DNA from: Clitopilus passeckerianus
Taxonomy: Eukaryota > Basidiomycota > Agaricomycetes > Agaricales > Entolomataceae
Length of the DNA stretch: 64,000 bases
Direction of reading: 5' to 3'
NCBI GenBank assembly: GCA_944990035.1
Contig: CALYLX010000159.1
Coordinates: 186,001 to 250,000, forward strand
In this document: positions 1,369 to 17,416 of the stretch, in pieces
Layout: each line of letters begins with the position of its first letter
Numbering within the stretch: position 1 is the stretch's first letter
Made by a program: the position numbers and the translations under genes
Notes under the pieces: model-generated
Databases searched by the model: none
Told to the model about the DNA's origin: nothing
Seen by the model: only the letters and a program-made list of their open reading frames with translations

Positions 1369-1508
1369 AAAACCATCGGAATCGACAGACTCCTAAAACC
1401 AGTCTCTCCCTGCGCTCGGCCATCCGGGGGATGCCGGTTCCCGAAGGGAACCAAACAAACAACTTTAGTTGTTTGCGAGCGCAGCGAGCGACTGGCAAAC
1501 TTTCCAGT
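1369..1508 (+). repeat. Left inverted repeat of the RecQ/DUF6589 element
   Basis: The core 1434-1508 (75 bp) is the reverse complement of 14331-14405 with two mismatches. Weaker similarity continues outward to about 1369 (shared TCG, CAG, CTCCT and CCCTGCGCTCGG blocks). It contains small palindromes: GGTTCCCGAAGGGAACC, CAACTTTAGTTG and CGAGCGCAGCGAGCG. These could be transposase-binding or promoter sites for the helicase gene beginning about 150 bp inside. Confidence 0.8.
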
Positions 1509-1658
1509 GGAGCATCAGAGCCATCAGGCTCGCTTGTAGTCGGTAGCACGTTTTAGGAATCTCAACATATGGCCCTCGCGAAATAAAATAGGGTTAGGTC
1601 TAAGGGCCATGTCACGCTGAATTGAGCAGTCAGACTTCCTAATTGAGTCAGTTCGTTC

Positions 1659-4039
1659 ATGCCTCAAAGCACAACGCGTCGTAAGTGGACTGTTGAGTCC
1701 ATTCGCGACCTTGTGGAGCAAAGGTTCAAGAAACGAGCATGCTGGTTCCAAATTCAGGTGGCTCAGGCCCTATACGACGGCAAAGACGTTGTAGGATGTG
1801 CCCCTACAGGTGCCGGCAAGACACTTTCATTCTGGATCCCCCTTCTCATGTCCCTTGCGGATGGCGAGGACAAAATGACATTTGTTATCACGCCACTGAA
1901 CATCCTGGGCAAGCAGAACGAGCAGCAACTACTCGAGGCTGGACTCCCTGCTGTGGCAGTTTCAAAAGAGAACGCAAACGACCGGATATTTGCAGTGAGT
2001 TCAAACGAGATAAACATTTTACATGTGGCTCATAGCTAGTAGGATATCAAAGACGGCAAATTTCGAGTGATTGTCATGAACCCTGAAATTGTCATGGTTA
2101 ATGAAAAGGTTGTTGCATGGTGGAAGCAGCCTACCTTGACCAAGAGAATACTGAACTTCATCCTTGATGAGGGCCACTGCGTCAGTCAATGGAGCACATT
2201 TCGCAAAGAGTATGGACTCCTTGGTCAACTCAGGCTCCTGATACAAAACCGAGTTCCCTTCTATGTTGCCTCAGCCACCCTCCCTCCTCCCGTGCTCCGA
2301 GAAGTTGAAGGAATACTCCGCCTCCGCCCAGAGACAACCGAGCATCTCCTGCGCTCGAATGACCGCCCAGATATCCACCTGATGGTCCAACCCTTGGTTC
2401 ACCCAGCTAACAGCTTCCGCGATCTCGACTTCCTGGTATCCCCTGAAATACAGGAAGGTAGAGCATCCCCACCAAAGTTCCTTGTATTCTTCGACAGCAC
2501 TAAAGAAGCGGAGGCAGCGTGTCATTACCTCCGAGCCAAGCTTCCAGAGTCAGAGGCGTCCAAGCTTCGATATTTCCATTCAGTCATGACACAGAGTTAT
2601 CGGGAGAAAAATGTTGAAGAGATCCAAAAGATGATAGCTGTCGGTTTTTGTTGTACCAACGCGTTTGGAATGGTAAGTGTCTGCTCCAACACCCATGGAC
2701 ACTGCTGACTTGTATTTGCAGGGAATGGACGTGTCGGACATTGAGATTGTGGTCCAATATAAGGCGACGTGCGACTTGTGCACGTTTTGGCAGCGATGGG
2801 GACGTGGAGCTCGAGGCGCAGATTATACGGCTGTTGCAATTCTGCTTGTTGAGAAAAAAGACACGAGGGAGGAGAGAGAGGCAAAAACTAAGCGTGCCGA
2901 AAAACGGAAATCCTCAAAGACGCCGACAGGACAGATGAGAGGGAGGAAGCGTAAGGCTCCGACTTCAGAGCCGGATTCCCAAGCCAAATCACCCAAGCGT
3001 CCCGCGCTCGCTCAAAGAAACTCCAACCTCAATAAAGATCCACCGGAAGCAGGTGCAGAAGAGGTCGACGGAGGTGCAGAGGAGGTCGATGCCGCTGTTG
3101 ATGACCCCGAGACGTTCAACGTTGCAACGTGGTTGGCGGAAAGGCGGATTGAGTATGGAAAGGGAGATAAGACGGTAGGTGATGGGCGTAAAGACCGTGG
3201 TGTTGTGGAAGGCAGCGTGATAGATGATTTCATCAACCTAGCATCGCTGGCGAAGGGCTCAGAGGACGTCGTTTGCAGGAGGTTGGTGATGAAGGCATAT
3301 ATGGGAAGTGACAGACCCGATCGACTCGGTAAGCGCTCGAACTGTTTGTTGGCAACTCGCTCACACGCCCTACCTTGGTTAGGGCTGCAGGATCACCTTC
3401 TCTGTGATCCTCTTACCACTGGCGGTTGTTCTCGCTGTCGCCCACGAACGCCCACGATCTGCTGCGACCAGTGCAGCCCAGATTACTTCCAAAAGTTCAT
3501 GGTTGGGTCCCAGAAGAATGTCACACGGAACACCAACGGCAAATCCCAGCTACCGAAGAACTGGACGAAAACTAACACCGACAATTGCCTCACCAACGCT
3601 CTCATTCAATGGCGTGACGCCGTGGCACTGGAACGGTTTGGATGGGGCGTATACAACACCCTCGGCAGCCGCCTGTTAATGACGGACGACACCGTCGACG
3701 CTATTGTTGTGTATGCTCACAACGGCAAGATACATACCATTGAGAGCATCACGAAGGAGACTGGTTGGACACACGAGGCTCACTGGCTCAAGGACCATGG
3801 CCAATCTCTTCTGGCGCTCATTCATGAGCATTACCCGCCACCTGCTAAGGATTCTGCGCCAGCCTCTGGTTCTCAACGGTCATGCAAGATCTGTGGACAG
3901 CCAGGTCATAATCGTAAGTAGCATGCTTCCTCAAGTCTTTATGCACCTCATTTCTATGTTTCCAGGAGCTACCTGTCGAGTTTACTGCAAGTACTGCGAA
4001 GCCTCTCAAGAGAAATGTGGGCACAGCTCACAGACTTGC
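1659..4039 (+). CDS. RecQ-like DEAD/DEAH-type helicase, 5' part (gene split by gypsy-1)
   Basis: Superfamily 2 helicase expected to unwind DNA with ATP. Exons are 1659-1994, 2043-2672, 2722-3913 and 3966-4039, with introns of 48, 49 and 52 bp bearing GT-AG ends; the frame stays open through all four. Visible motifs: CAPTGAGKT (Walker A, about residue 46), DEGHCVSQW (motif II, Glu-Gly replacing the common Glu-Ala/Cys), SATLPPP (III), NAFGMGMD (V, assembled across intron 2) and WQRWGRGAR (VI). A Lys/Arg-rich linker and a Cys-rich patch follow. The end has CKICGQPGHNRATC (CX2CX4HX4C zinc knuckle, created by splicing intron 3) and CKYCEASQEKCGHSSQTC. No HRDC domain is evident. The gene is interrupted at 4039 by gypsy-1 and resumes at 11300 in frame. 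Confidence 0.8.
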
Positions 4040-4192
4040 TGTTATGATTTTGCTTACATGTTTCTCCTTACATACCCCGGCCCGCTTACCTATGCACGAT
4101 TACTCACATATGCTGCGCATCACTGCGCATTTTTCATCTTTTTCCATGCTTACTCCGCATCTCTCACGATCGTGAGAGACTTATACCTTATC

Positions 4193-4319
4193 TGACTCTT
4201 TCTGACTCGCATTGAGTCATACTGACTCATGTACTTACTCATCATGCTGCGCATGACTCATTACTTGCTCAGCATGCTGCGCATGTGCTATATTTAGAAC
4301 TACTAGATAGGTATATAAA
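4193..4319 (+). promoter_or_regulatory. gypsy LTR promoter: TGACTCA cluster plus TATA box
   Basis: Three exact TGACTCA heptamers (4213-4219 reverse, 4223-4229 and 4254-4260) and two TGACTC copies (4193 and 4203) lie 50-120 bp upstream of TATATAAA (4312-4319). TGACTCA is the Gcn4/AP-1 class bZIP site; in fungi Gcn4-type factors mediate amino-acid starvation responses. That it controls this element is inference. Confidence 0.6.
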
Positions 4320-4344
4320 CCTGTACCATTTGGTCAAGGCTCCT

Positions 4345-4355
4345 CAGCTTGACCT
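4345..4355 (+). promoter_or_regulatory. Predicted transcript 5' end that self-primes
   Basis: CAGCTTGACCT begins 33 bp after the start of the TATA box, where transcription should begin. It is the exact reverse complement of AGGTCAAGCTG at 4527-4537 just inside the LTR. This matches the known Tf1/sushi self-priming scheme, in which the first 11 nt of the transcript pair with the primer-binding site. Confidence 0.65.
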
Positions 4356-4526
4356 AGGCAATCTACCTAACTGCTTAGTTCTCTACTTCGCCTTTAAGTC
4401 CCTTGCTTCGTCAATCTCACCAGGTCGTCAGTACAGCCGCAGCTGCTGACAAATCTCTGTCTTTGTTTATCAAAGACATTGAGCGTAAACAGTATTACCT
4501 AAGTTGTTAGGCTCTGCCTTAACAAA

Positions 4527-4537
4527 AGGTCAAGCTG
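4527..4537 (+). promoter_or_regulatory. gypsy-1 primer-binding site (self-priming type)
   Basis: AGGTCAAGCTG lies 2 nt inside the 5' LTR. It does not start with the TGG expected for a tRNA 3' end, but pairs over 11 nt with 4345-4355. The same arrangement is present in gypsy-3 (immediately left of 36791 on the minus strand). Confidence 0.65.
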
Positions 4538-5119
4538 TTCAGAAGGCCCGCTCATTGTTAGCGCAGGCCCACCCCACGACAACACAGCAGAAGCACGCAA
4601 CAGGCCGATTGCCGTTGCGGCTACCACTCAGTCACCACGGTCGTACACAGGGCAGACCACCCGCCACGAAATACCACTCTAGTAGAAGGAACCAACAACG
4701 TCTACAAGTTCACCAACGGAAACTACTGCGGTTTTAATCACAACAATAACCGCTGGTGCTACGCCTCTCTCTCTTGGCAAATTCACATTCACCACCGTTG
4801 CCGTTGAAAACAGACACTTCCACGCTCTAGACTTCCCTACCCCTGAACGACCTCATAAGACCCTGCTATTGTCCGAGCTCAACGAGAACACGACATTGAA
4901 GTAGACGAGGAGGAACAGCGACGCTTCGCACCATTACCCACAGCAATATCCAGGAACCCATCACTAGTCCCATCTACCAGCGCTTCTGTCTTGCCCGAAG
5001 AGGAAGAAGAAGAACACCAAGTACAACAACAGCTAGAGGAGAGCCCCACAGCTGAGCCAGAGGAGCGCCCCAGTGCAGAAACAATTGAACCAGAGACCGA
5101 CTTCGATTTCGACTACGAA

Positions 5120-6047
5120 ATGTCACAAGACAACAACAACAAGAAGGACATTGGAGCCAAACCCCAAACGTTCTCCGGAGACCGATCCAAGACCAGAAAG
5201 TTCATTCAGGAACTTGAAGACTACCTCATCCTAAACAACCTCAACCAACTCGAAGATGACAAGAAGATTCGCATCGCCTTATCCTTCCTCAAAGAAGGAA
5301 CTGCAGCAGCATGGGGATTAGAATTTCACGATAAATATTCAGCAGCTGAAAGGAAAGCCACCTACGCTGAATTTATCAGCCAATTCAAAGAAGCCTTTTC
5401 CCTACCGACGACAAAGCTGCCGCACTTCTCCAACTCAAAGCCTTACGACAGGATGGGACAGCTGACGAATTTGTCACCGTCTTCAAGAATATTCTTGCAC
5501 GAACTGATCTCAGCGGTGACACTGCAAAGATCGAGATCTTCATGGAAGGACTTACCCCAAACTCCGAGAGAAAATTCTCTTTTCCGATTCCCCTCCTACC
5601 ACATTCGACGATTGGGTCAAGAAAGCCGTCCAGTTTGACAACAACTGGCGACGTGCCAAGACAATCATGGGACATACCCGTATCATCAAGACATCTGATA
5701 TGGTCAAAGGTGCTTACAAAACACCTACTGGAGCCCGAGACCCAATGGCTATGGATGTTGATCGTTTCACCACTGATCCACCCAAACGCCGCCTCACCCA
5801 GGAGGAAAGAGAACATCACAAGAAGAACAACTTGTGCTACTATTGCTCCAAGAAAGGTCACACGATCCAACAATGTCTTCAAAGGAAGAATTTTGGAAGA
5901 ACCTACCCCAGCAACAACGACAGCCGTTTCCACAAGAAACCTGAGAAGGGAGCCGAGTTGATCAAATATGTCAGAACAGTCCTAGCTGACATGCCCCAAG
6001 AAGAAGCCGCTGAATTCTACACCGAAGCAGAGGCTGAGGGTTTTTAA
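5120..6047 (+). pseudogene. gag: gypsy-1 gag (frameshifted)
   Basis: Capsid/nucleocapsid polyprotein. First in-frame ATG is 5120 (MSQDNNNKKDIG). The same frame is open upstream through a Glu-rich segment but has no ATG. The C-terminal half carries the CCHC zinc knuckle CYYCSKKGHTIQQC. Compared with gypsy-3 there is a lost base near 5400 and two extra bases near 5590, so the reading frame shifts out and returns. Both changes are in C-rich runs and could be sequencing errors. The stop TAA at 6045-6047 directly follows the slippery site. Confidence 0.85.
6038..6044 (+). promoter_or_regulatory. Candidate -1 ribosomal frameshift site, gag to pol
   Basis: G GGT TTT in the gag frame is followed at once by the gag TAA. 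The -1 frame from here is open, without a stop, into the protease. The X XXY YYZ form fits established eukaryotic slippery sites. Also present in gypsy-2 (21736-21742, minus) and gypsy-3 (35269-35275, minus). Confidence 0.65.
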
Positions 6048-9000
6048 AGAGGAAGACTGCAAAGCCGACGTCAGTACTTCCTCGCCCGATTGATATTTCC
6101 AGTGTACTTGTAGCTACTGATTTTTATGCTGAATCTATGCGTATCCCAATCTCTCTACAAGACCCCCTAGATGGAAATACAACAATCGCCGGCACAAAAG
6201 CTCTCATTGACTCTGGAGCGCAAGGGTCATTTATCGACTCCGTCTTTGCCAAGACACATCACCTCCCGCTACTCCCACTCCGACAACCGATTACAGCACG
6301 AAACGTTGATGGCACCCTGAACAAACAAGGAACTATTACCCACTTTACCTGGGTTATTGCCAAGATAGGGACAGCCATCATCAAGGAAAGATGTTTTATC
6401 ACTGGACTCGGGAAAGACCACCTGATTTTTGGATTACCCTGGCTAAAACGGGTAGATCCAATCATATCGTGGAGCGACGGCACACTCGAAATCGACGAAT
6501 CACGCATTACCCAACGACTGTCGCAAACATTGATGCGAGCAGTAGACATCAAGCGGATGAGAGCCATCCGAGAACAACTACTAGAGGAAAACACGCCACC
6601 TACCCCAGCACCTGATTGTTCCGAAGAGAATCCCGGAAAATCAGAAGGACTTAGCGACTATTTCCGAATAGTCGAAGACGGAGAAGAGATCAATGAAGAT
6701 TTTCTCATCGCATACTGCCAGAACGAACCGGCAGTCGGAATATTCACCAAGGAGGAACCCCACTTACGCAGGAACACACAAAGGATTACCTTGTGTACGG
6801 GCCAATCAGGCCAACTACCACAATACGACAGACGGTGGTAACACACCATCCAGCAACCAGACACCACACACAGCAGGTGTGGATACGTGCGAAAACATCA
6901 ATTTCGCAAGCTCTGGAACATAAACGAGAAGATAAGGAACCAAAGAAATCCCTTGACGAAATCATCCCGACTATCTTCAAGACTACAGAAAAGTCTTTGA
7001 GAAAGCAGCATCCGAACGATTCCCACCAAGCCGACCCTGGGATCACGCCATAGATCTGAAGACAGATTTCGTGCCAAAAGACTGCAAGGTCTATCCGCTC
7101 AGCCCCTTAGAGCAAGAAAAACTCGACGAGTTTCTCAAGGAAAATCTAGCCAAAGGATACATCCGAGAATCCAACTCCCCACAAGCATCTCCGTTCTTCT
7201 TTGTTGCAAAGAAAGACTCGGAAGCCCTAAGACCATGTCAGGATTACCGACGACTCAACGAAGGAACAATACCTAACGCTTACCCCTTACCGCTGGCTAG
7301 CGAACTCATCGATAAACTCAAAGGAGCAACTGTCTTCACCAAACTCGACATTCGATGGGGATATCACAACATCCGCATCAAAGATGGTGACCAATGGAAA
7401 GCAGCGTTCAAGACCAACCGAGGGTTATTTGAACCAATGGTGATGTTCTTTGGACTAATGAACTCACCCGGTACCTTCCAAGCAATGATGAACCACCTTT
7501 TCCGAGACATGATAGACGAAGGATGGGTCATCATCTACATGGACGACATCCTCATCTTCTCCAACGATCCAGAAAAACACCGAGAACGCACACGCAGAGT
7601 CTTACAAAGACTACAAGACAACGATCTCTACCTCAAAGCAGAGAAATGCCAATTTGACACCACAAGAGTGGAATACCTCGGGTTCATCATTGAACCAAAC
7701 AAGATCTCCATGGACCCTGTCAAACTTGCAGGGATGCGCGACTGGCCTACGCCAACTACAGTAAAGGAAGTCCGATCATTCCTAGGATTCGGAAACTTTT
7801 ACCGCAGGTTCATCGGACAATATGCGGAAATTGCCAAACCGCTGAACGAACTCACCAAGAAAGACAAGAAGTGGGAATGGACCAATGAATGTCACAAAGC
7901 TTTCACTACCCTGAAAGACAAATTCCTGGAAGCGCCTGTGTTGCTGATGCCTGACCCCACGAAGCCATTTGTGGTGGAAAGCGACGCCTCAAAACATGCA
8001 ACAGGAGCAGTCCTACAACAACGTGACGCCAACGGATCATGGCACCCATGTGGTTTCATATCTAAATCGTTCTCGGAAACAGAACGGAACTATGAAATCT
8101 ACGACCGAGAACTTCTAGGCATTATCCGCGCATTAGAAACCTGGCGACACTACTTCCATGGATCCCAACATTCAGTTGTGATTCTATCCGATCACAAAAA
8201 CCTCACATACTTCCGAGAAGCCCGGAAGTTGAACCGACGACAAGCAAGATGGAATTTGATGCTATCCCAGTTTAACATCAAACTTGTACACACCCCTGGT
8301 GCAAAGATGATACAATCTGACGCACTATCTCGACGACCAGACCACATCCCAGGTGAAGACACCGACAACGAAGACATCATTCTCCTCCCCGACAAGCTCT
8401 TCCTTCGCTCAATCGACATTGAACTAAAGGACGAAATTGTACACAAGATGGTCAATGACAAACTGATTGTTGACGCCATTCGCACCGCCAAAGAAGACGG
8501 ACCCCCACCAATCCGATCAAACCTGGAAGACTGGAAATTTGACGATGGCATCTTGTACTACAAGGACAAGTGCGTGGTACCAGATGACGAAGACCTCCGA
8601 AGGAAGATAGTCCAACGTTATCACGATCTACCCAGCGCAGGACACCCTGGACAATTTGGGACACTGGAGAAAGTCCGGAAGGACTACTGGTGGCCAGGGA
8701 TGTCAGTGTTCATCAAGAACTTTGTGCAGGGCTGTGCAATGTGCCAGCAAATGAAAATCAATCGCCACCCCACCGCTCCACCATTAATGCCCATCAAATC
8801 CGAAACCACTAGGCCATTTTCGCTAGTGACGTACGATTTTCACACGGATCTCCCAGAGAGTGATGGTTTCGATAGCATTATGGCCGTGGTCGACCATGGA
8901 GCTACGAAGGGGGCAATTTTCATCCCTTGCACAAAGAAAATCGACGCCACAGGAACTGCAAACGCCTACATTGACAACGTTTACCGTCGCTTTGGACTCC

Positions 9001-9868
9001 CCGACAAAGGAATTTCTGACAGAGGACCTCAATTCGCCTCTAAAGTTTTCCAAGAAATGGGACGACTTCTTGGAATCAAGCTCAACATGAGCACCGCCTA
9101 CCACCCACAAACCGATGGTGCGACAGAAAGGATCAATCAGGAGATTGATGCCTATCTCCGCATCTTCTGTGCACAGAACCCCGAATCCTGGTCCAAATGG
9201 ATTACCACTCTAGAATTCTCCTACAACAGCCGAACACACTCTGTCACCAAACGAACCCCATTCTACCTAATGATGGGATACGAACCACCTGCACTCCCAT
9301 CAATTGCTCCCACTAGCAAAATTCCCGCAGTTGACAAACGGATCAAGGAACTTCTGCTAGCACGCGATGAAGCAAATGCTGCACATGCACTTGCTGCGCA
9401 ACGCATGGCAGAGAAGATCACACGACAGTTCACCCCATTCAAAGTCGGAGAAAAGGTGTGGTTAGAAGCCACAAATCTCAATCAAGGAAACATCTCCAAG
9501 AAACTAGCACCCAAACGAGAAGGACCCTTCAAGATACTCGAGGTAAAGGACACCTGACCTATAAACTCGACCTGCCAAGACGATGGAAGATCCACCCGGT
9601 GATTCACGCATCACTTCTCACCCGTTACATCTCCACCAAAGCGCATGGACCCAGCTTCTCTAAACCGCCACCTGACGAAATCGACGGAATAGAAGAATAC
9701 GAAATAGAAGCAATTGTGGCCCATCAGAAACAAGGCAAAGGGCGACACAGATACCTCGTAAAATGGAAGGGATGGCCATCAGCGGACAACGAATGGATGC
9801 CCGAGTCGGAACTGCGGAACGCCAAGGAAATACTCACCGAGTATAAAAAGAGGAAGAAACTCACCTGA
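6048..9868 (+). pseudogene. pol: gypsy-1 pol: protease, RT, RNase H, integrase, chromodomain (frameshifted)
   Basis: Protease DSGAQGS (about 6211), reverse transcriptase with YMDDIL (about 7536), RNase H, integrase zinc-binding and DDE domains (HPGQFG...CAMCQQ; SDRGPQF; HPQTDGATERINQ), and a C-terminal chromodomain (YEIEAIVAHQ...YLVKWKGWPSADNEW) that ends at TGA 9868. Three one-base losses relative to gypsy-3 break it, near 6756 (C run), 6966 (C run) and 9546 (A run). The chromodomain class targets integration to modified heterochromatin in known chromoviruses. If the losses are sequencing errors, the real gene is intact. Confidence 0.9.
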
Positions 9869-9906
9869 CACCACATAGCAAACCCACTCACATCCACTAT
9901 ATAACA

Positions 9907-10776
9907 ATGTCTCAAAATGCCTCTTCCTACGACCGCACCATCATCCGCAACACCTTCAAATCCGATACCGCTATTACGGCGCTCCGTACGCATACTGCCT
10001 GGAGCAGCGACGACAACCCTCTCACCGCTGTGGGAGAACAAGGAACCCTTTACCAAAACCGACGAACCGAAACTCGCAACGAAGTGGCTCGTCTGCGCCA
10101 CCAATTTGCGAAAACCACTGACGATCTTGATCAACTTTTGGACAAAGTTGATCGAGAAACGGAGGAGACCCTCACAGACCTCTTCTTTGCTATTGGAGGA
10201 ACAGCTTTCCTCGACGAATTCTTCCCCGAACGACAAAACTGGTTCAACAACCCAGAGGAGACAGACTTCGAAACCCTTGCCTCCAATCCCTGGGGGCCTG
10301 AGGAAAGTCAAGAAGAGGAAGTCACGATCCTCACTGCACGTCAAGTTTGCGGAACCCTACGAGCATTTCCTCCCGTCACCAATTTACACACCACCGCAAA
10401 AATAAAACATAACCCCTTCGTCAAAGAAGAACAGAACGACAACAAGGAAAACATCAACCCCAATGGCAAACCCTCCAACGCCATACCTCTCCGCATTCGA
10501 AAGCCCACCAGAGTCCGACTCACCAACGCTGGTGAACCTTCCCCCTCGACAATATCGTCCCAGAAGGCGCCGCGCACTGGATACCTTGCCAACAGACCAC
10601 CACCACCCAGATGGTTCAGATGCTACATTTGTGGAGGCAGACACCGACAGTGTCATTGCTTTCGTTTTGTGTGTCGTCTGTGCCATCGTCGTGGCCCAGG
10701 CCATTACCCGGTTAGCTGCCCACAACGCTACCACAAGGGCATAGACCGTCACTTCTGGGGTAAAGGAAGGAATTGA
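9907..10776 (+). CDS. gypsy ORF3: unknown 289-aa protein with zinc-knuckle-like tail
   Basis: Intact ORF starting 38 bp after the pol stop and ending about 30 bp before the 3' LTR. It is present at the same place in all three gypsy copies (17445-18314 and 30533-31403, minus). The N-terminal 130 residues are helical and charged (ARLRHQFAKTTDDLDQLLDK). The centre is low-complexity. The C-terminus has CYICGGRHRQC and CRLCHRRGPGHYPVSC, i.e. CX2CX6HX4C. No signal peptide or membrane segment, so although it occupies the env position it is not env-like. Nucleic-acid binding is inferred from the Cys/His motif. Confidence 0.75.
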   Translation: MSQNASSYDRTIIRNTFKSDTAITALRTHTAWSSDDNPLTAVGEQGTLYQNRRTETRNEVARLRHQFAKTTDDLDQLLDKVDRETEETLTDLFFAIGGTAFLDEFFPERQNWFNNPEETDFETLASNPWGPEESQEEEVTILTARQVCGTLRAFPPVTNLHTTAKIKHNPFVKEEQNDNKENINPNGKPSNAIPLRIRKPTRVRLTNAGEPSPSTISSQKAPRTGYLANRPPPPRWFRCYICGGRHRQCHCFRFVCRLCHRRGPGHYPVSCPQRYHKGIDRHFWGKGRN

Positions 10777-10809
10777 AGTCAGGAGACTTCAACGATAGCG
10801 AGAGGGTAA

Positions 10810-11294
10810 TGTTATGATTTTGCTTACATGTTTCTCCTTACATACCCCGGCCCGCTTACCTATGCACGATTACTCACATATGCTGCGCATCACTGCGCAT
10901 TTTTCATCTTTTTCCATGCTTACTCCGCATCTCTCACGATCGTGAGAGACTTATACCTTATCTGACTCTTTCTGACTCGCATTGAGTCATACTGACTCAT
11001 GTACTTACTCATCATGCTGCGCATGACTCATTACTTGCTCAGCATGCTGCGCATGTGCTATATTTAGAACTACTAGATAGGTATATAAACCTGTACCATT
11101 TGGTCAAGGCTCCTCAGCTTGACCTAGGCAATCTACCTAACTGCTTAGTTCTCTACTTCGCCTTTAAGTCCCTTGCTTCGTCAATCTCACCAGGTCGTCA
11201 GTACAGCCGCAGCTGCTGACAAATCTCTGTCTTTGTTTATCAAAGACATTGAGCGTAAACAGTATTACCTAAGTTGTTAGGCTCTGCCTTAACA
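10810..11294 (+). repeat. gypsy-1 3' LTR
   Basis: Appears identical to 4040-4524. Preceded by the purine-rich GCGAGAGGGTAA (polypurine tract) and followed by the duplicated target CTTGC. Confidence 0.95.
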
Positions 11295-11299
11295 CTTGC

Positions 11300-11656
11300 C
11301 CATCCCTCAACTCGTCCACACCCTATCGATCATCCGCTATTTGCTCACCTGCAAAAGGTATACCAAACACCTCACAAACACCTCTGCGCTCTCGCGTAAC
11401 AAATGACGAAAACATACCACCCGTCGACCCACCAACAGTCGCAATTCCACGTCACTATCAATACCTAGTGGATCGAACGCCCACGACTCCTTCCGCACCT
11501 ACAACAGCCAACCGTTATTTATATTCGCCATATCTACTCGCTCGTCCATCGTATTATCTACCTACAGGTCCGCCATCAAGTCAGCATCATCATACGCCTC
11601 ACGATCAAGGACATCTTCCACCGCATCCTCCCTCTCCTCTGTACCGTCGCTCGTAA
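11300..11656 (+). CDS. RecQ-like helicase, 3' end of last exon after gypsy-1
   Basis: Continuation of the exon that starts at 3966. The duplicated target CTTGC (4035-4039 and 11295-11299) flanks gypsy-1. Dropping one copy makes 74 + 357 nt join in frame and run to TAA at 11656. The tail is Pro/Thr/Tyr-rich and low-complexity, with no domain I recognise. Its last 95 bp overlap the last exon of the convergent DUF6589 gene (stop at 11562), so the two genes are packed tail to tail. With the retroelement in place, the native protein probably is not made. Confidence 0.75.
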   Translation, partial: PSLNSSTPYRSSAICSPAKGIPNTSQTPLRSRVTNDENIPPVDPPTVAIPRHYQYLVDRTPTTPSAPTTANRYLYSPYLLARPSYYLPTGPPSSQHHHTPHDQGHLPPHPPSPLYRRS

Positions 11657-14185
11657 GTGTTACATTTGACGTGTCTTTGAATGGCTTGCTCATGCCAATT
11701 GCCATTGCGTCAGGTAATGCATAATTTGTAGTTCGTCCAGGAATATATTCATTTGGTCTTGCCTCGTGTATGTGGAGTTGGAGCCTCTTGAATGTCGCCT
11801 CCATGTTCGGTGATGAGTGGCGGATAGTTCTGTTATCAAGATGGAACATATTTTCAAACTGGAGCCGTAAATTCTTGTACACCTCAATGAGCACTGACTC
11901 CTCAAGAATTCGACTTTTCTGGTGGTTAGAATACTTTCCGCCGTGTATTCTCTAGCCAAAGTGTGAGTACATCATTTTCCTAACCCTGAATGATTACTGA
12001 CCTTGATAAAGAGGTTGTTGTGTTCGACGAGCCAGTCTATGCCACGAAAGCAACCTTTTCGCCCCGTCGGATTGCAAAGAATGTTCATTCGGATGGCACG
12101 ACTGAGACCCTTAGGATAATGAAAGTGTACGTTCTCCAGATATCGTCGCATCTCCAAGGCATACTTATGTTTGCCGCAGCCTTGAAAGATATACATCCAC
12201 GGGACAAATAGGACTTCAACACGCCCAATGTCACCATGGTTGAGTGCGTAAGACATTTCCTCATACCAGAGGAAATAGTCGTGCAGTAGCAGTGTGTTCT
12301 CCTGTTGCATGTCTCTGTCATCGTCGTCCTTTCGGCGTAGAGACGAGAGGTGATGAGGTGGCGGTGCATACTTGCGAGCGAGCTCGTCTGCAAGTTTCTC
12401 AACCTCTTCCCAGGTTGGTTCCGAGGCTGCAAACTCCTCGAGAGACTTGTGTTTCTTTTCTGTAGCCGTGATGATCCGTGTCCATGCGTCGAGACGGAGC
12501 ACTGTCCCCACATGCTGAATGACTTCGTGCATCTGTCGGAAGGTGGGTTTGCTTTCTATCTTCCCCGTTTCTTTTGGTCGAAGTTTACTGACATAATCTG
12601 CCAGACTAGTGGTGTCCTTTCGAGCATCCTTTGGGAAGATGCATATCTTCCAGATGGCAACCACACACGCCATCTTGAGATGAAATAGGCCCATGACGAA
12701 GACAATAGCCTGGAGGCGATTCCAGTCTGATGTATCCTTAGTACGCGAGTTGATGAGGCTCCGAGCATGCTGACCGGTGAGCAAGTCCCCAACCACGAGC
12801 ATCACCATATTAACCGGGTTGACAACTCCAGGAGTCTCCTCGGGATCGCCAACTGCCGCTTGCTGGAAAATGTGGTCAAGGGCATTTGCGTTGTCTCCAG
12901 GGGTACTGGGCTTGATATCCATGGCACTCATAGGTAGCTGCTCAGTCTTCGTGATGGGTATCGCTTCTATGACTTCAGGATCCCCCAGGGTGCGTCAAAA
13001 CTTCACGCGAAAATACCCAGGACCGTGGCTGATCAAATCCTCTTTGAATTTGTAGGACACGTAACGCTGGCGACGCGTTAGCCCAGATGGGTGCTCCTTC
13101 TCGGGGTGTATGGCTATGAGCTTGTCAATTGTCACGGCGGGGCGATTGGGCAGGTTCATCGAAGGGTTGATGGCGGTCTTCTCCCATACTTCCTTCGCAC
13201 AGTCAAGGTCTTCTCGCTTCACTCCGTGATTCAAAGGAAGCATCGTGGCTGATGTAAGATGGATGAGGGTGTCGGCTGAGGTCTCAACAGTAGGTGTAGA
13301 ATGCTTCAAATCCATGTCAAGATTGTCGTATGCGTACATGGTGAGTAAACCGCGCCCTTTTGCTCGTATAGCATGTAACGCTGACTTGGACAGATTCTTG
13401 ATTGAAGAGTTAATTGAGGTGGACGACACAGAGAGGCCTGCATGTGCCAGAAATTCTCAAACGGTCTCTGGGGTGCCGCAAGAATGAAGAAAGACCCCAA
13501 TAAGCCCCTGAAGGGCATTGCATTGTCGGTTTGTGCTATTCGCCATGATACTGATACATATGACCTTTTTCTATTGCTATCGGTGAGCAACACGTATACC
13601 AGCTTGGGACAGTATCAAACTCACGATTTCAAGCAGTGAATCATACAGCATGGTTGAAGAACTGTAGCTGTCTTTGTTCCCTTCCTCGGCATCTGTTTGC
13701 TCGTCGTCGTCGCCTCCAATTGCTTCAGCAAATCCCTCTCGGCGTCTCCTCTTTGATGATGCACCTGATGTCTGCCCGTTTGCGCGTTTTCTTTTCCACT
13801 CCCTCTCCTGATTGACGTCTGAATCAGCAGAGAGCAGCGAGTCCATCAGCCGCCACAAAGTAGGTGTCACCCCCCGCATCTTCTTGGCAATCTGGCTGAT
13901 CTCAATCTCTTTCAGCCTCTTTTCGGTGACATCGTCGGCAATAAATCGAAGTTGGTGCCTCTCCTTTGTGAGCTCGGCGACTTCAGCCTTGAGTTTGTCC
14001 TCGAATTGTGCGACAGTTCGGCCGTCCTGCAGCAAGGTACTACCCCAGATAACATCAAGCAGAGGGTTGATTCGTTCAGGGAAACTTTGGCTGTCCAACA
14101 GAGAGGTGATAAACTCCTCTGGAGTGGTACCCTCTCGGTCAAGAAATCCAAGGATAGCTCTAATTTTCGAGTCGGCGAGTGGCAT
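11562..14185 (-). pseudogene. DUF6589 protein (candidate transposase), two in-frame stops
   Basis: Three exons, 14185-13625, 13570-12002 and 11951-11562, with 54- and 50-bp introns; lengths 561, 1569 and 390 nt keep one frame (about 839 codons). The first real ATG is 14185; the frame is open further upstream without ATG. Family features recalled from basidiomycete DUF6589 proteins: TAPTLW-like GVTPTLW, YAYDNLDMD, LPLNHGVKRED, LVVGDLLTGQHARSL, EEMSYALNHGDIGRVE, GKHKYALEMRRYL, and WLVEHNNLFIK joined by splicing to RIHGGKYSN. Premature TGA codons occur at 13457-13459 and 12995-12997. The surrounding residues are conserved, so these are stops rather than missed introns; a C-to-T change at CGA would explain both. 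Role unknown; DDE-type activity is my inference. Confidence 0.75.
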
Positions 14186-14330
14186 GGAGAGAGTGGCCCT
14201 CCCTTTGTGACAGGCAGTCTGTATTAGGTAGTTTTCTATCACGTGGATGCTATTTTATTCTAAATAATAAACGCGTGGCCATCTTTTCCGACTGCCAAAT
14301 GTGGTCGAATCTGATGTCCGTGATCAACGG

Positions 14331-14465
14331 ACTGGAAAGTTTGCCAGCCGCTCGCTGCGCTCGCAAGCAACTAAAGTTGTTTGTTTGGTTCCCTTCGGGA
14401 ACCGGAACTTCTGCCGAGCGCAGGGAGTGGCTGGTTATAGGAGCCTGCGGAATCGACAGTTTTTG
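14331..14465 (-). repeat. Right inverted repeat of the RecQ/DUF6589 element
   Basis: 14331-14405 is the reverse complement of 1434-1508 with two mismatches in 75. Weaker similarity runs outward to about 14465. Its inner edge is about 145 bp from the DUF6589 start. Confidence 0.8.
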
Positions 14466-15206: not shown

Positions 15207-16333
15207 ATGGTTTTCCGTCACTTTAGCGAGGATCTCAAGGCTCATGCACTTTGGTTACTGGATCATGACTACATCCCCGAGGATGTTGCTGAGATCCTAG
15301 GTGTTTCTGTCCGAAGCCTTGCTTGCTGGCAGCACAATGTTGCAGAACATGGCTCAGCACTGCCTCTGCCTGCTTATACTCGTGGTCGACCTTGCATCCT
15401 CACGGCAGATACAATGTACAGTGTTGTCGATCTTATTGAGAACACACCTGAGATGTATCTGGATGAAATCCAGGAGTGGATTGCTCTAGAGCATGATGCT
15501 GTTATCTCGCGGACCGCATTGCATGAGAACATTTGTGATGCTGGAATGAGCTACAAGATGCTATCAAAGGCAGCTCTGGAGCGGGATGAAGAGGCTCGTG
15601 ATGCTTGGAGAACTGAAATGTTGAATCACTGGGTAGCGGGTCAGATTGTGGTAGTTGACGAGATCAGCAAAGATGACTGAACCATTTTCCGCTGCTATGG
15701 ACATTTGTTTCGGGGGCAGCAAGCCAATATATCTGCTAACTTTGTTCGTGGAACAAGGTATAGCTTGGTTGGTGCCATGGCTGTTGATGGATATGTGGCG
15801 AGCTGTGTGGTGGAAGGTTCTGTTGATGGCGATGAATTTTTTGACTTTATTGTCGAGAATGTGGTGAGGCTTTTTCTTCTTTGCCCATTGAATATCATTG
15901 ATACTTATCATTGTTCCTCAGCTGCCAAAAATGAACAGATTCCCATTGGATAAGAGTGTTCTTATTATGGATAATTGTGCAATCCATAAATCTGACTTGC
16001 TGCGTGAAGTAATTGAGGGCCATGGTGCGTGTCAATCTTCTAGTAAGAATTTAGTAGAACTCATTCATTTTTTTTCAGGCTGTGTCCTTGAATTCCTTCC
16101 CCCATATTCACCCGATTTCAACCCAATTGAGGCAAGCTTTAGTTGTAGTAAGTTTTGTGATTATTGTTCCATTTGTATCTCACACTATTACTACCAGTCA
16201 AAAGCTGGATTCACCGTCGTTATAAATACATGCAGAATGCCAAAGATCCATATGCTGCACTTTATGAAGCAACAGGTGCTGTCACAGCAGACAAGGCTCA
16301 AGAGTGGTTTTTGAACTCAGGTTACCAGCTCTA
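15207..16333 (+). pseudogene. Tc1/mariner-type DDE transposase, 3' end lost
   Basis: ATG at 15207 begins a helix-turn-helix domain (HFSEDLKAHALWLL; DVAEILGVSVRSL), then a DDE domain: VVVDEISKDD, LIMDNCAIHKS, and LPPYSPDFNPIEASF. Exons are 15207-15863, 15922-16024, 16079-16147 and 16198-16333; all junctions are GT-AG and keep frame. A TGA at 15678-15680 falls where relatives have an Arg (KDDRT), fitting a CGA-to-TGA change. The last codons run into the Copia-A2 LTR at 16334, so the natural C-terminus and the 3' terminal repeat are missing. Not functional as read. Confidence 0.8.
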
Positions 16334-16931
16334 TGTCGAGCAAGCATGCCTTCCAGCGAGGGAAGTTGCAGATGACCCTTACCTTGAGCTACATAGGTGT
16401 GGGCTTGTGAGGTGAGAGCGAACTATGTAATAAGACTAGAGAAGTCTCCAATGTATTAGGGTAAAGTACGTAGGTTTATATACATAAGGAGAGTGTGCAC
16501 AGACCATGTATATGTAAGCATATCTAGAATGTTCTGTGCTAAATATAGTACGGAAGTGACACGGAATGAGTCATAAGTAGTCATGAAGTGTCACGTGAGT
16601 TGCCATGAGGCATATTCGTAAGAAGACGTAATAATGGTGCAATATGGCGCATTACTAATCATGTGATGTCACGTGAGTGGTACGCGTCAATCCAACACAC
16701 CCCCCCGAAGACCACCTATTGTGTGTCTTTGTTCTTAGACGAGTAAAACTCAAGTCCAAGTTGAGATCTGAACTGCTCAAATTTGACACGTTCCAAATTC
16801 TTGGTCAGCATGTCAGCAGTGTTCTCGTTTCCAGGTATAAAGTATAACTCTATTATACCGTTTTCAACACATTCGCGGGTGTAGTGATAGTGAATATCAA
16901 TGTGTTTAGTTCGGCGTTTCTGGACAGGATG
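16334..16931 (-). mobile_element. Copia-A2 remnant: 3' LTR and end of pol
   Basis: LTR 16334-16697 (TGTCGAGC to CCAACA on the plus strand) closely matches the Copia-A LTRs at 24663 and 38792. To its right, 16698-16931 encodes the C-terminus of Copia RNase H on the minus strand, as in 25035-25262. It is cut at 16932 by the gypsy-2 LTR. No partner LTR lies in the window, so most of this copy is gone. Confidence 0.85.
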
Positions 16932-17416
16932 TGTTATGATTTTGCTTACATGTTTCTCCTTACATACCCCGGCCTGCTTACCTATGCACGATTACTCACA
17001 TATGCTGCGCATCACTGCGCATTTTTCATCTTTTTCCATGCTTACTCCGCATCTCTCACGATCGTGAGAGACTTATACCTTATCTGACTCTTTCTGACTC
17101 ACATCGAGTCATACTGACTCATGTACTTACTCATCATGCTGTGCATGACTCATTACTTACTCAGCATGCTGCGCATGCGCTATATTTAGAACTACTAGAT
17201 AGGTATATAAACCTGTACCATTTGGTCAAGGCTCCTCAGCTTGACCTAGGCAATCCACCTAACTGCTTAGTTCTCTACTTTGCCTTTAAGTCCCTTGCTT
17301 CGTCAATCTCACCAGGTTGTCAGTACAGCCGCAGCTGCTGACAAATCTCTGTCTTTGTTTATCAAAGACATCGAGCGTAAACAGTATTACCTAAGTTGTT
17401 AGGCTCTGCCTTAACA
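16932..17416 (-). repeat. gypsy-2 3' LTR
   Basis: 485 bp, same family as 4040-4524 with scattered transitions (for example GGCCTGC for GGCCCGC, CACATCGAG for CGCATTGAG). It shares several of these with the solo LTR at 49702, suggesting a subfamily. Confidence 0.9.

Follow-up and report, generated by a model that had tools for sequence, protein, structure and literature searches.

Does the pair formed by a RecQ-like helicase gene and a gene of the DUF6589 family, found between inverted repeats in the mushroom Clitopilus passeckerianus, constitute a mobile DNA element, and if so of what kind? The pair lies in a stretch of 64,000 nucleotides (contig CALYLX010000159.1, positions 186,001 to 250,000 of the forward strand), called the window below, which is C156:186001-250000 in the 64.8-Mb assembly of 160 contigs that was searched here. 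An earlier note on this DNA had proposed an autonomous unit, representing a new class of DNA transposon, at positions 1369 to 14465 of the window. We find that the element is real, with true edges at 1386 and 14447, and that it most probably belongs to the AcademH group of class II DNA transposons, with the DUF6589 protein as its very probable transposase and the helicase as a putative accessory.

Ends, copies and empty sites of the element

Alignments between copies of the element end within 3 bases of positions 1386 and 14447 of the window. The left terminal inverted repeat (1386-1508, 123 bp, + strand) starts with CAGACTCCTA and holds the palindromes GGTTCCCGAAGGGAACC and CAAACAACTTTAGTTGTTTG; the right one (14331-14447, 117 bp, - strand) has the outer end CAGGCTCCTA, read inward. 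The two are 86-88% alike over their full length. The inverted 75-bp core described earlier (1434-1508 and 14331-14405) was present, with 97% complementarity, and is the inner part of these ends of about 120 bp. The left and right target-site duplications, 9 bp each and without strand, stand next to them at 1377-1385 and 14448-14456, and both read CGGAATCGA.

When the genome was searched for the left end, six places came up, namely both ends of three elements located in the window, on C83 and on C34. The 75-bp core searched alone, with E values up to 10, also gave six places, all of them ends of the three elements; occurrences of the core alone or in unrelated contexts, which the earlier note had named as refuting its idea, were not seen in the genome. 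The uninterrupted copy, on C34, lacks the retrotransposon that is nested in the window copy and measures 5802 bp, close to the proposed 5.8 kb. Aligned inner pieces of the three copies are 99.4-99.8% identical. Perfect 9-bp direct repeats border all three copies, and their sequence changes from copy to copy (CGGAATCGA in the window, GAGCAGGCC on C34 and CGTAGACCC on C83). Other sequence common to the surroundings of the copies consists of repeats only, such as the long terminal repeat (LTR) of the nested retrotransposon, found more than 1 kb beyond the edge of the C83 copy.

To find empty sites, the flanks of each copy were joined and the genome was searched with the joined sequence. Related element-free sites were obtained for all three insertions (C53:72333-72465, 94%; C36:169783-170045, 83%; C82:160258-160560, 92%), and a second one, at 80%, for the C83 copy. 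The alignments cross the junction with a single copy of the target, which is identical at the C53 site, where a 6-bp gap lies two bases away, and differs by one base at each of the C36 and C82 sites. These are related sites and not proven alleles. In conclusion, the claim of a mobile unit is supported by three recent copies at unrelated places, with both genes within the same ends, differing perfect 9-bp duplications and related empty sites; we read the copies as independent insertions of one DNA transposon.

The DUF6589 protein as a predicted DDE transposase

The two genes are convergent and start, as had been noticed, about 150 bp inside their repeats: the helicase ATG (1659) is 150 bp inward of the left repeat and the DUF6589 ATG (14185) is 145 bp inward of the right one. 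That these are the only genes between the repeats is true once a nested Ty3-type retrotransposon (4040-11294) is excluded, and untrue of the window copy as it stands.

The DUF6589 gene, which encodes the probable DDE transposase, occupies 11562-14185 on the - strand (modelled exons 14185-13625, 13570-12002 and 11951-11562) and matches DUF6589 (PF20231) with an E value of 2.3e-87. Two AlphaFold models for DUF6589 matched Hermes, P element, ISCth4, Transib and RAG1; they point strongly to a fold of the RNase H type into which a large helical segment is inserted ahead of the catalytic glutamate. The candidate catalytic residues are conserved (D, codon 13325-13327; D, codon 12785-12787; E, codon 12023-12025). 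The matching predicted fold, taken with the conservation of these three candidates, makes a DDE transposase the very probable identity of DUF6589, and the role of recombinase attributed to it in the earlier note is backed by the same models and acidic residues.

A single search returned 433 DUF6589 homologues at E 0.001 or better. The DUF6589 profile had no serious match among solved structures (a single row, E 0.82), and a Pfam scan of 37 homologues with E up to 0.1 found no family besides DUF6589 in more than 3 of the 37. When viral contigs were scanned for DUF6589 loci, the patterns matched at 41 stretches, none of them a relative. In a search for animal or nuclease-fused relatives, for which a long chimeric sequence headed the alignment, the best 120 of 303 matches were all DUF6589 proteins; among the 120 listed, those with an organism name all came from mushroom-forming fungi. 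In the genome of C. passeckerianus, the family is represented by the three elements and by one short diverged piece on C152 (C152:465088-465276, 46.6 bits over 63 profile positions), which has no recognisable element ends.

DUF6589 was not named in the literature searched, in which most subscription journals are missing, and PF20231 gave only a chance match in an unrelated optics paper; within this literature the link between DUF6589 and a transposase seems unreported. Reading DUF6589 as a transposase provides a likely function for a Pfam family that had none, and DUF6589 genes of mushroom genomes should then count as mobile DNA and not as host genes.

The RecQ-like helicase and its pairing with DUF6589

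The helicase gene lies on the + strand at 1659-4039 (exons 1659-1994, 2043-2672, 2722-3329, 3384-3914 and from 3967 on), the exon ends being deduced from GT..AG signals and the reading frame, without RNA. Its last exon is broken in the window copy by the nested retrotransposon. The protein matches the RecQ family model TIGR00614 with E 5e-39, a score below the model's own cut-off, and for this reason it is named RecQ-like and not a standard RecQ. The closest solved structures include RecQ, WRN, RecQ1 and BLM, in line with the identity first proposed for it. A zinc knuckle, CKICGQPGHNRATC, is located near the C-terminus (Pfam E 0.005 for the exon, under the cut-off). A genome search with a 221-residue piece of the helicase found three places, one per element.

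The named relatives belong to mushroom-forming fungi. Coincidence on contigs was counted, among the matches listed, between 70 DUF6589 rows and 73 helicase rows with an organism name; unnamed rows were left out of the count (50 for DUF6589, out of 120 listed, and the fungal-type helicase rows P0176 and P0192), as were the 45 helicase rows from P0196 on. The search of related mushrooms that the earlier note had advised gave 17 row pairs in which DUF6589 and helicase share a contig, each pair within a single species and none between species. The genes are neighbours by number in Tricholoma furcatifolium (H0H92_004012/004013, on a 5792-base contig), twice in Cerrena zonata (QCA50_004608/004609 and 014705/014706) and in Trametes cinnabarina (scf184690 g3/g2). 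EVJ58_g6058 and g6060 of Rhodofomes roseus, both with a 36130-base contig, form a pair additional to the 17. Six of the 17 pairs are on contigs shorter than 100 kb, co-location on longer contigs being weaker evidence; pair P0048-P0135, on a 2.18-Mb contig with gene numbers far apart, is likely due to chance.

Protein distances of DUF6589 and of the helicase were correlated (r 0.53, p 5e-5, which is the floor of 20,000 permutations) over 17 pairs, made up of 16 without P0048 and of the window's own. This correlation supports joint descent of the two genes and is not proof of it, because species history alone would yield some correlation.

Decay of the copies and nested insertions

The claim that the unit is autonomous did not hold for the copies in this assembly. 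All three share an in-frame TGA in the DUF6589 gene (12995-12997); seven homologues aligned there lack a stop and are one residue shorter ahead of that point. In addition, the window copy has a further DUF6589 stop (13457-13459), the C34 helicase frame ends early, at the zinc knuckle, and the C83 DUF6589 gene is split by an LTR-type insert, about 6.7 kb long, whose 413-bp ends are identical. Because of the shared stop and the further lesion in each, no copy is autonomous by these gene models, young as they are. The shared stop could mean that an intact copy elsewhere acts in trans, that the stop is read through or that an intron went unrecognised. In their present state the copies are probably unable to move by themselves; their movement would have occurred in trans or before decay set in. 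The three copies differ at 39 variable sites (36 transitions and 3 transversions), 23 of which are CpG to TpG, a bias that fits decay of methylated DNA.

The nested Ty3-type LTR retrotransposon (+ strand, 4035-11299 with its duplications) is not part of the transposon proper and is missing from the C34 copy. It is flanked by the 5-bp duplication CTTGC (4035-4039 and 11295-11299), its LTRs are identical over the 484 bases compared, and it has reverse transcriptase (RVT_1), RNase H and integrase domains. Elsewhere in the window, a further copy of its LTR (98%) stands at 16932-17231 and is followed, to 20000 and beyond, by inverted copies (96-97%) of its internal part. A sequence at 16454-16569 is 87% like 120 bp of the ends of the C83 insert.

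Classification of the element

The AcademH lineage of the Academ superfamily was reportedly defined by Kojima in 2020. A RecQ helicase was recorded for Academ in 2013 (PMC3627910), AcademH is described with 9 or 10 bp duplications and a helicase, AcademX with 3 or 4 bp duplications and a nuclease (PMC10045372), and AcademH is said to be low-copy in Basidiomycota, Ascomycota and Mucoromycota (PMC10799480). The element described here has, like AcademH, a 9-bp duplication, perfect at all three copies, terminal inverted repeats (123 and 117 bp), a RecQ-like helicase in all three copies, though scoring below the cut-off of the RecQ model, and a predicted DDD/E transposase, DUF6589, by fold and conserved residues; it is present in three copies only, and its named relatives are in mushroom-forming fungi as AcademH is in Basidiomycota. 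Judged by published descriptions, no compared feature sets it apart from AcademH, within which it is most suitably placed as a new family. The proposal of a new transposon class is unsupported, because the RecQ helicase of Academ and the duplications of AcademH are already in print. The transposase identity of DUF6589 is a useful addition beyond this filing.

Several points weigh against this reading. Excision of the element was not seen, and a stop shared by all three copies is odd for recent movers. Of the 70 DUF6589 rows with organism names, 53 lacked a partner among the helicase rows listed. The Foldseek TM-scores of DUF6589 with Hermes are low (0.15-0.33, with about 10% identity), and a likeness between predicted folds is by itself no proof of activity. 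Finally, Mutator-like elements (MULEs) are described as making duplications of 8-11 bp (PMC6446971), a range that includes 9 bp.

An improbable alternative is that the element belongs to a separate, undescribed superfamily. Its DDE transposase, DUF6589, would be unrelated to that of Academ, would have acquired a RecQ helicase independently and would make 9-bp duplications by chance. No sequence link of DUF6589 to Academ could be demonstrated, and the absence of a solved relative by sequence, of another recurring Pfam relative in the 37 members scanned and of the family's name in the literature covered would fit such a separate origin. Against it, the element agrees with AcademH, as published in the sources cited above, in the type of helicase, the length of the duplication, the inverted ends, the low copy number and the host group. 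It is unlikely that DUF6589 is a DDE superfamily of its own across mushroom-forming fungi that lacks homology to Academ and commonly goes with a RecQ-like helicase; if it were, hundreds of proteins now labelled unknown would be its transposases.

The duplication length and the long inverted ends are also those expected of a MULE that has captured a RecQ helicase. However, Pfam gave no MULE family for the window exons (E up to 1) or for the 37 homologues (E up to 0.1), and pairing of DUF6589 with the helicase in many species argues against a one-off capture, which makes this explanation very unlikely; a remote link between the folds is conceivable from the ISCth4 match. The idea that this is no transposon but a segmental duplication or a subtelomeric repeat with a RecQ helicase, prompted by the telomere-linked RecQ genes reported in several fungi (PMC4522978), can practically be dismissed, as all three copies are 163-218 kb from the nearest contig end, the alignments stop at the repeat ends and are followed by the 9-bp duplication, and empty sites were found.

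End-like sequences and neighbouring genes

The outer 17 bases of the element, with up to 2 mismatches, matched the genome 42 times (6 exact matches, which are the element ends), compared with 49 times for a reversed-pattern control; since they do not exceed the control, these matches are meaningless as a class. In several of five regions with one-mismatch matches there are short palindromic repeats, with which 30-50 bp of the element end can be aligned (best E 1.6e-13). Such repeats, of 53-108 bp, were observed at C126:461280-461387, on C138 and on C53, and they are similar at their ends to the outermost 30-50 bp of the element. By eye, neither the C126 unit nor the first C138 unit showed a matching 9-bp duplication. 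These short palindromic repeats may be small non-autonomous relatives.

A fragmented Tc1-like transposase gene lies next to the right end of the element, at 15207-16415, with an HTH_23 domain and, by eye, the motifs MDNCAIHK and LPPYSPDFNPIE.

Proposed mechanism and comparison with other systems

We propose that the DUF6589 transposase would bind the ends of about 120 bp, cut them and join them to target strands staggered by 9 nucleotides, while the helicase might act as an accessory protein, opening or clearing the DNA of the ends or of the target gap. The idea that a helicase sets duplication length was raised for AcademH versus AcademX (PMC10045372). With its exact ends, 9-bp duplication and paired helicase, the element offers a clean system for asking this, and for asking what a RecQ helicase does beside a DDE transposase.

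Compared with the hAT transposase Hermes, DUF6589 has a similar predicted catalytic fold, in which helices are inserted ahead of the last acidic residue. In contrast to Hermes, to which DUF6589 is about 10% identical, the element has 9-bp duplications and a helicase gene; hAT elements make 8-bp duplications and are not known to carry a helicase gene. Helitrons, which are not known to have target duplications or inverted ends, were rejected on account of the presence of both here. Kolobok elements duplicate TTAA, and KolobokH was rejected because the 9-bp duplications of the element vary in sequence and are not TTAA. Like KolobokH, described as a fungal Kolobok DNA transposon with a RecQ helicase, present only in fungi (PMC9587614), the element is a DNA transposon with a RecQ-type helicase; the KolobokH helicase lies downstream of the transposase domain according to the same source, whereas the helicase described here is encoded by a separate, convergent gene.
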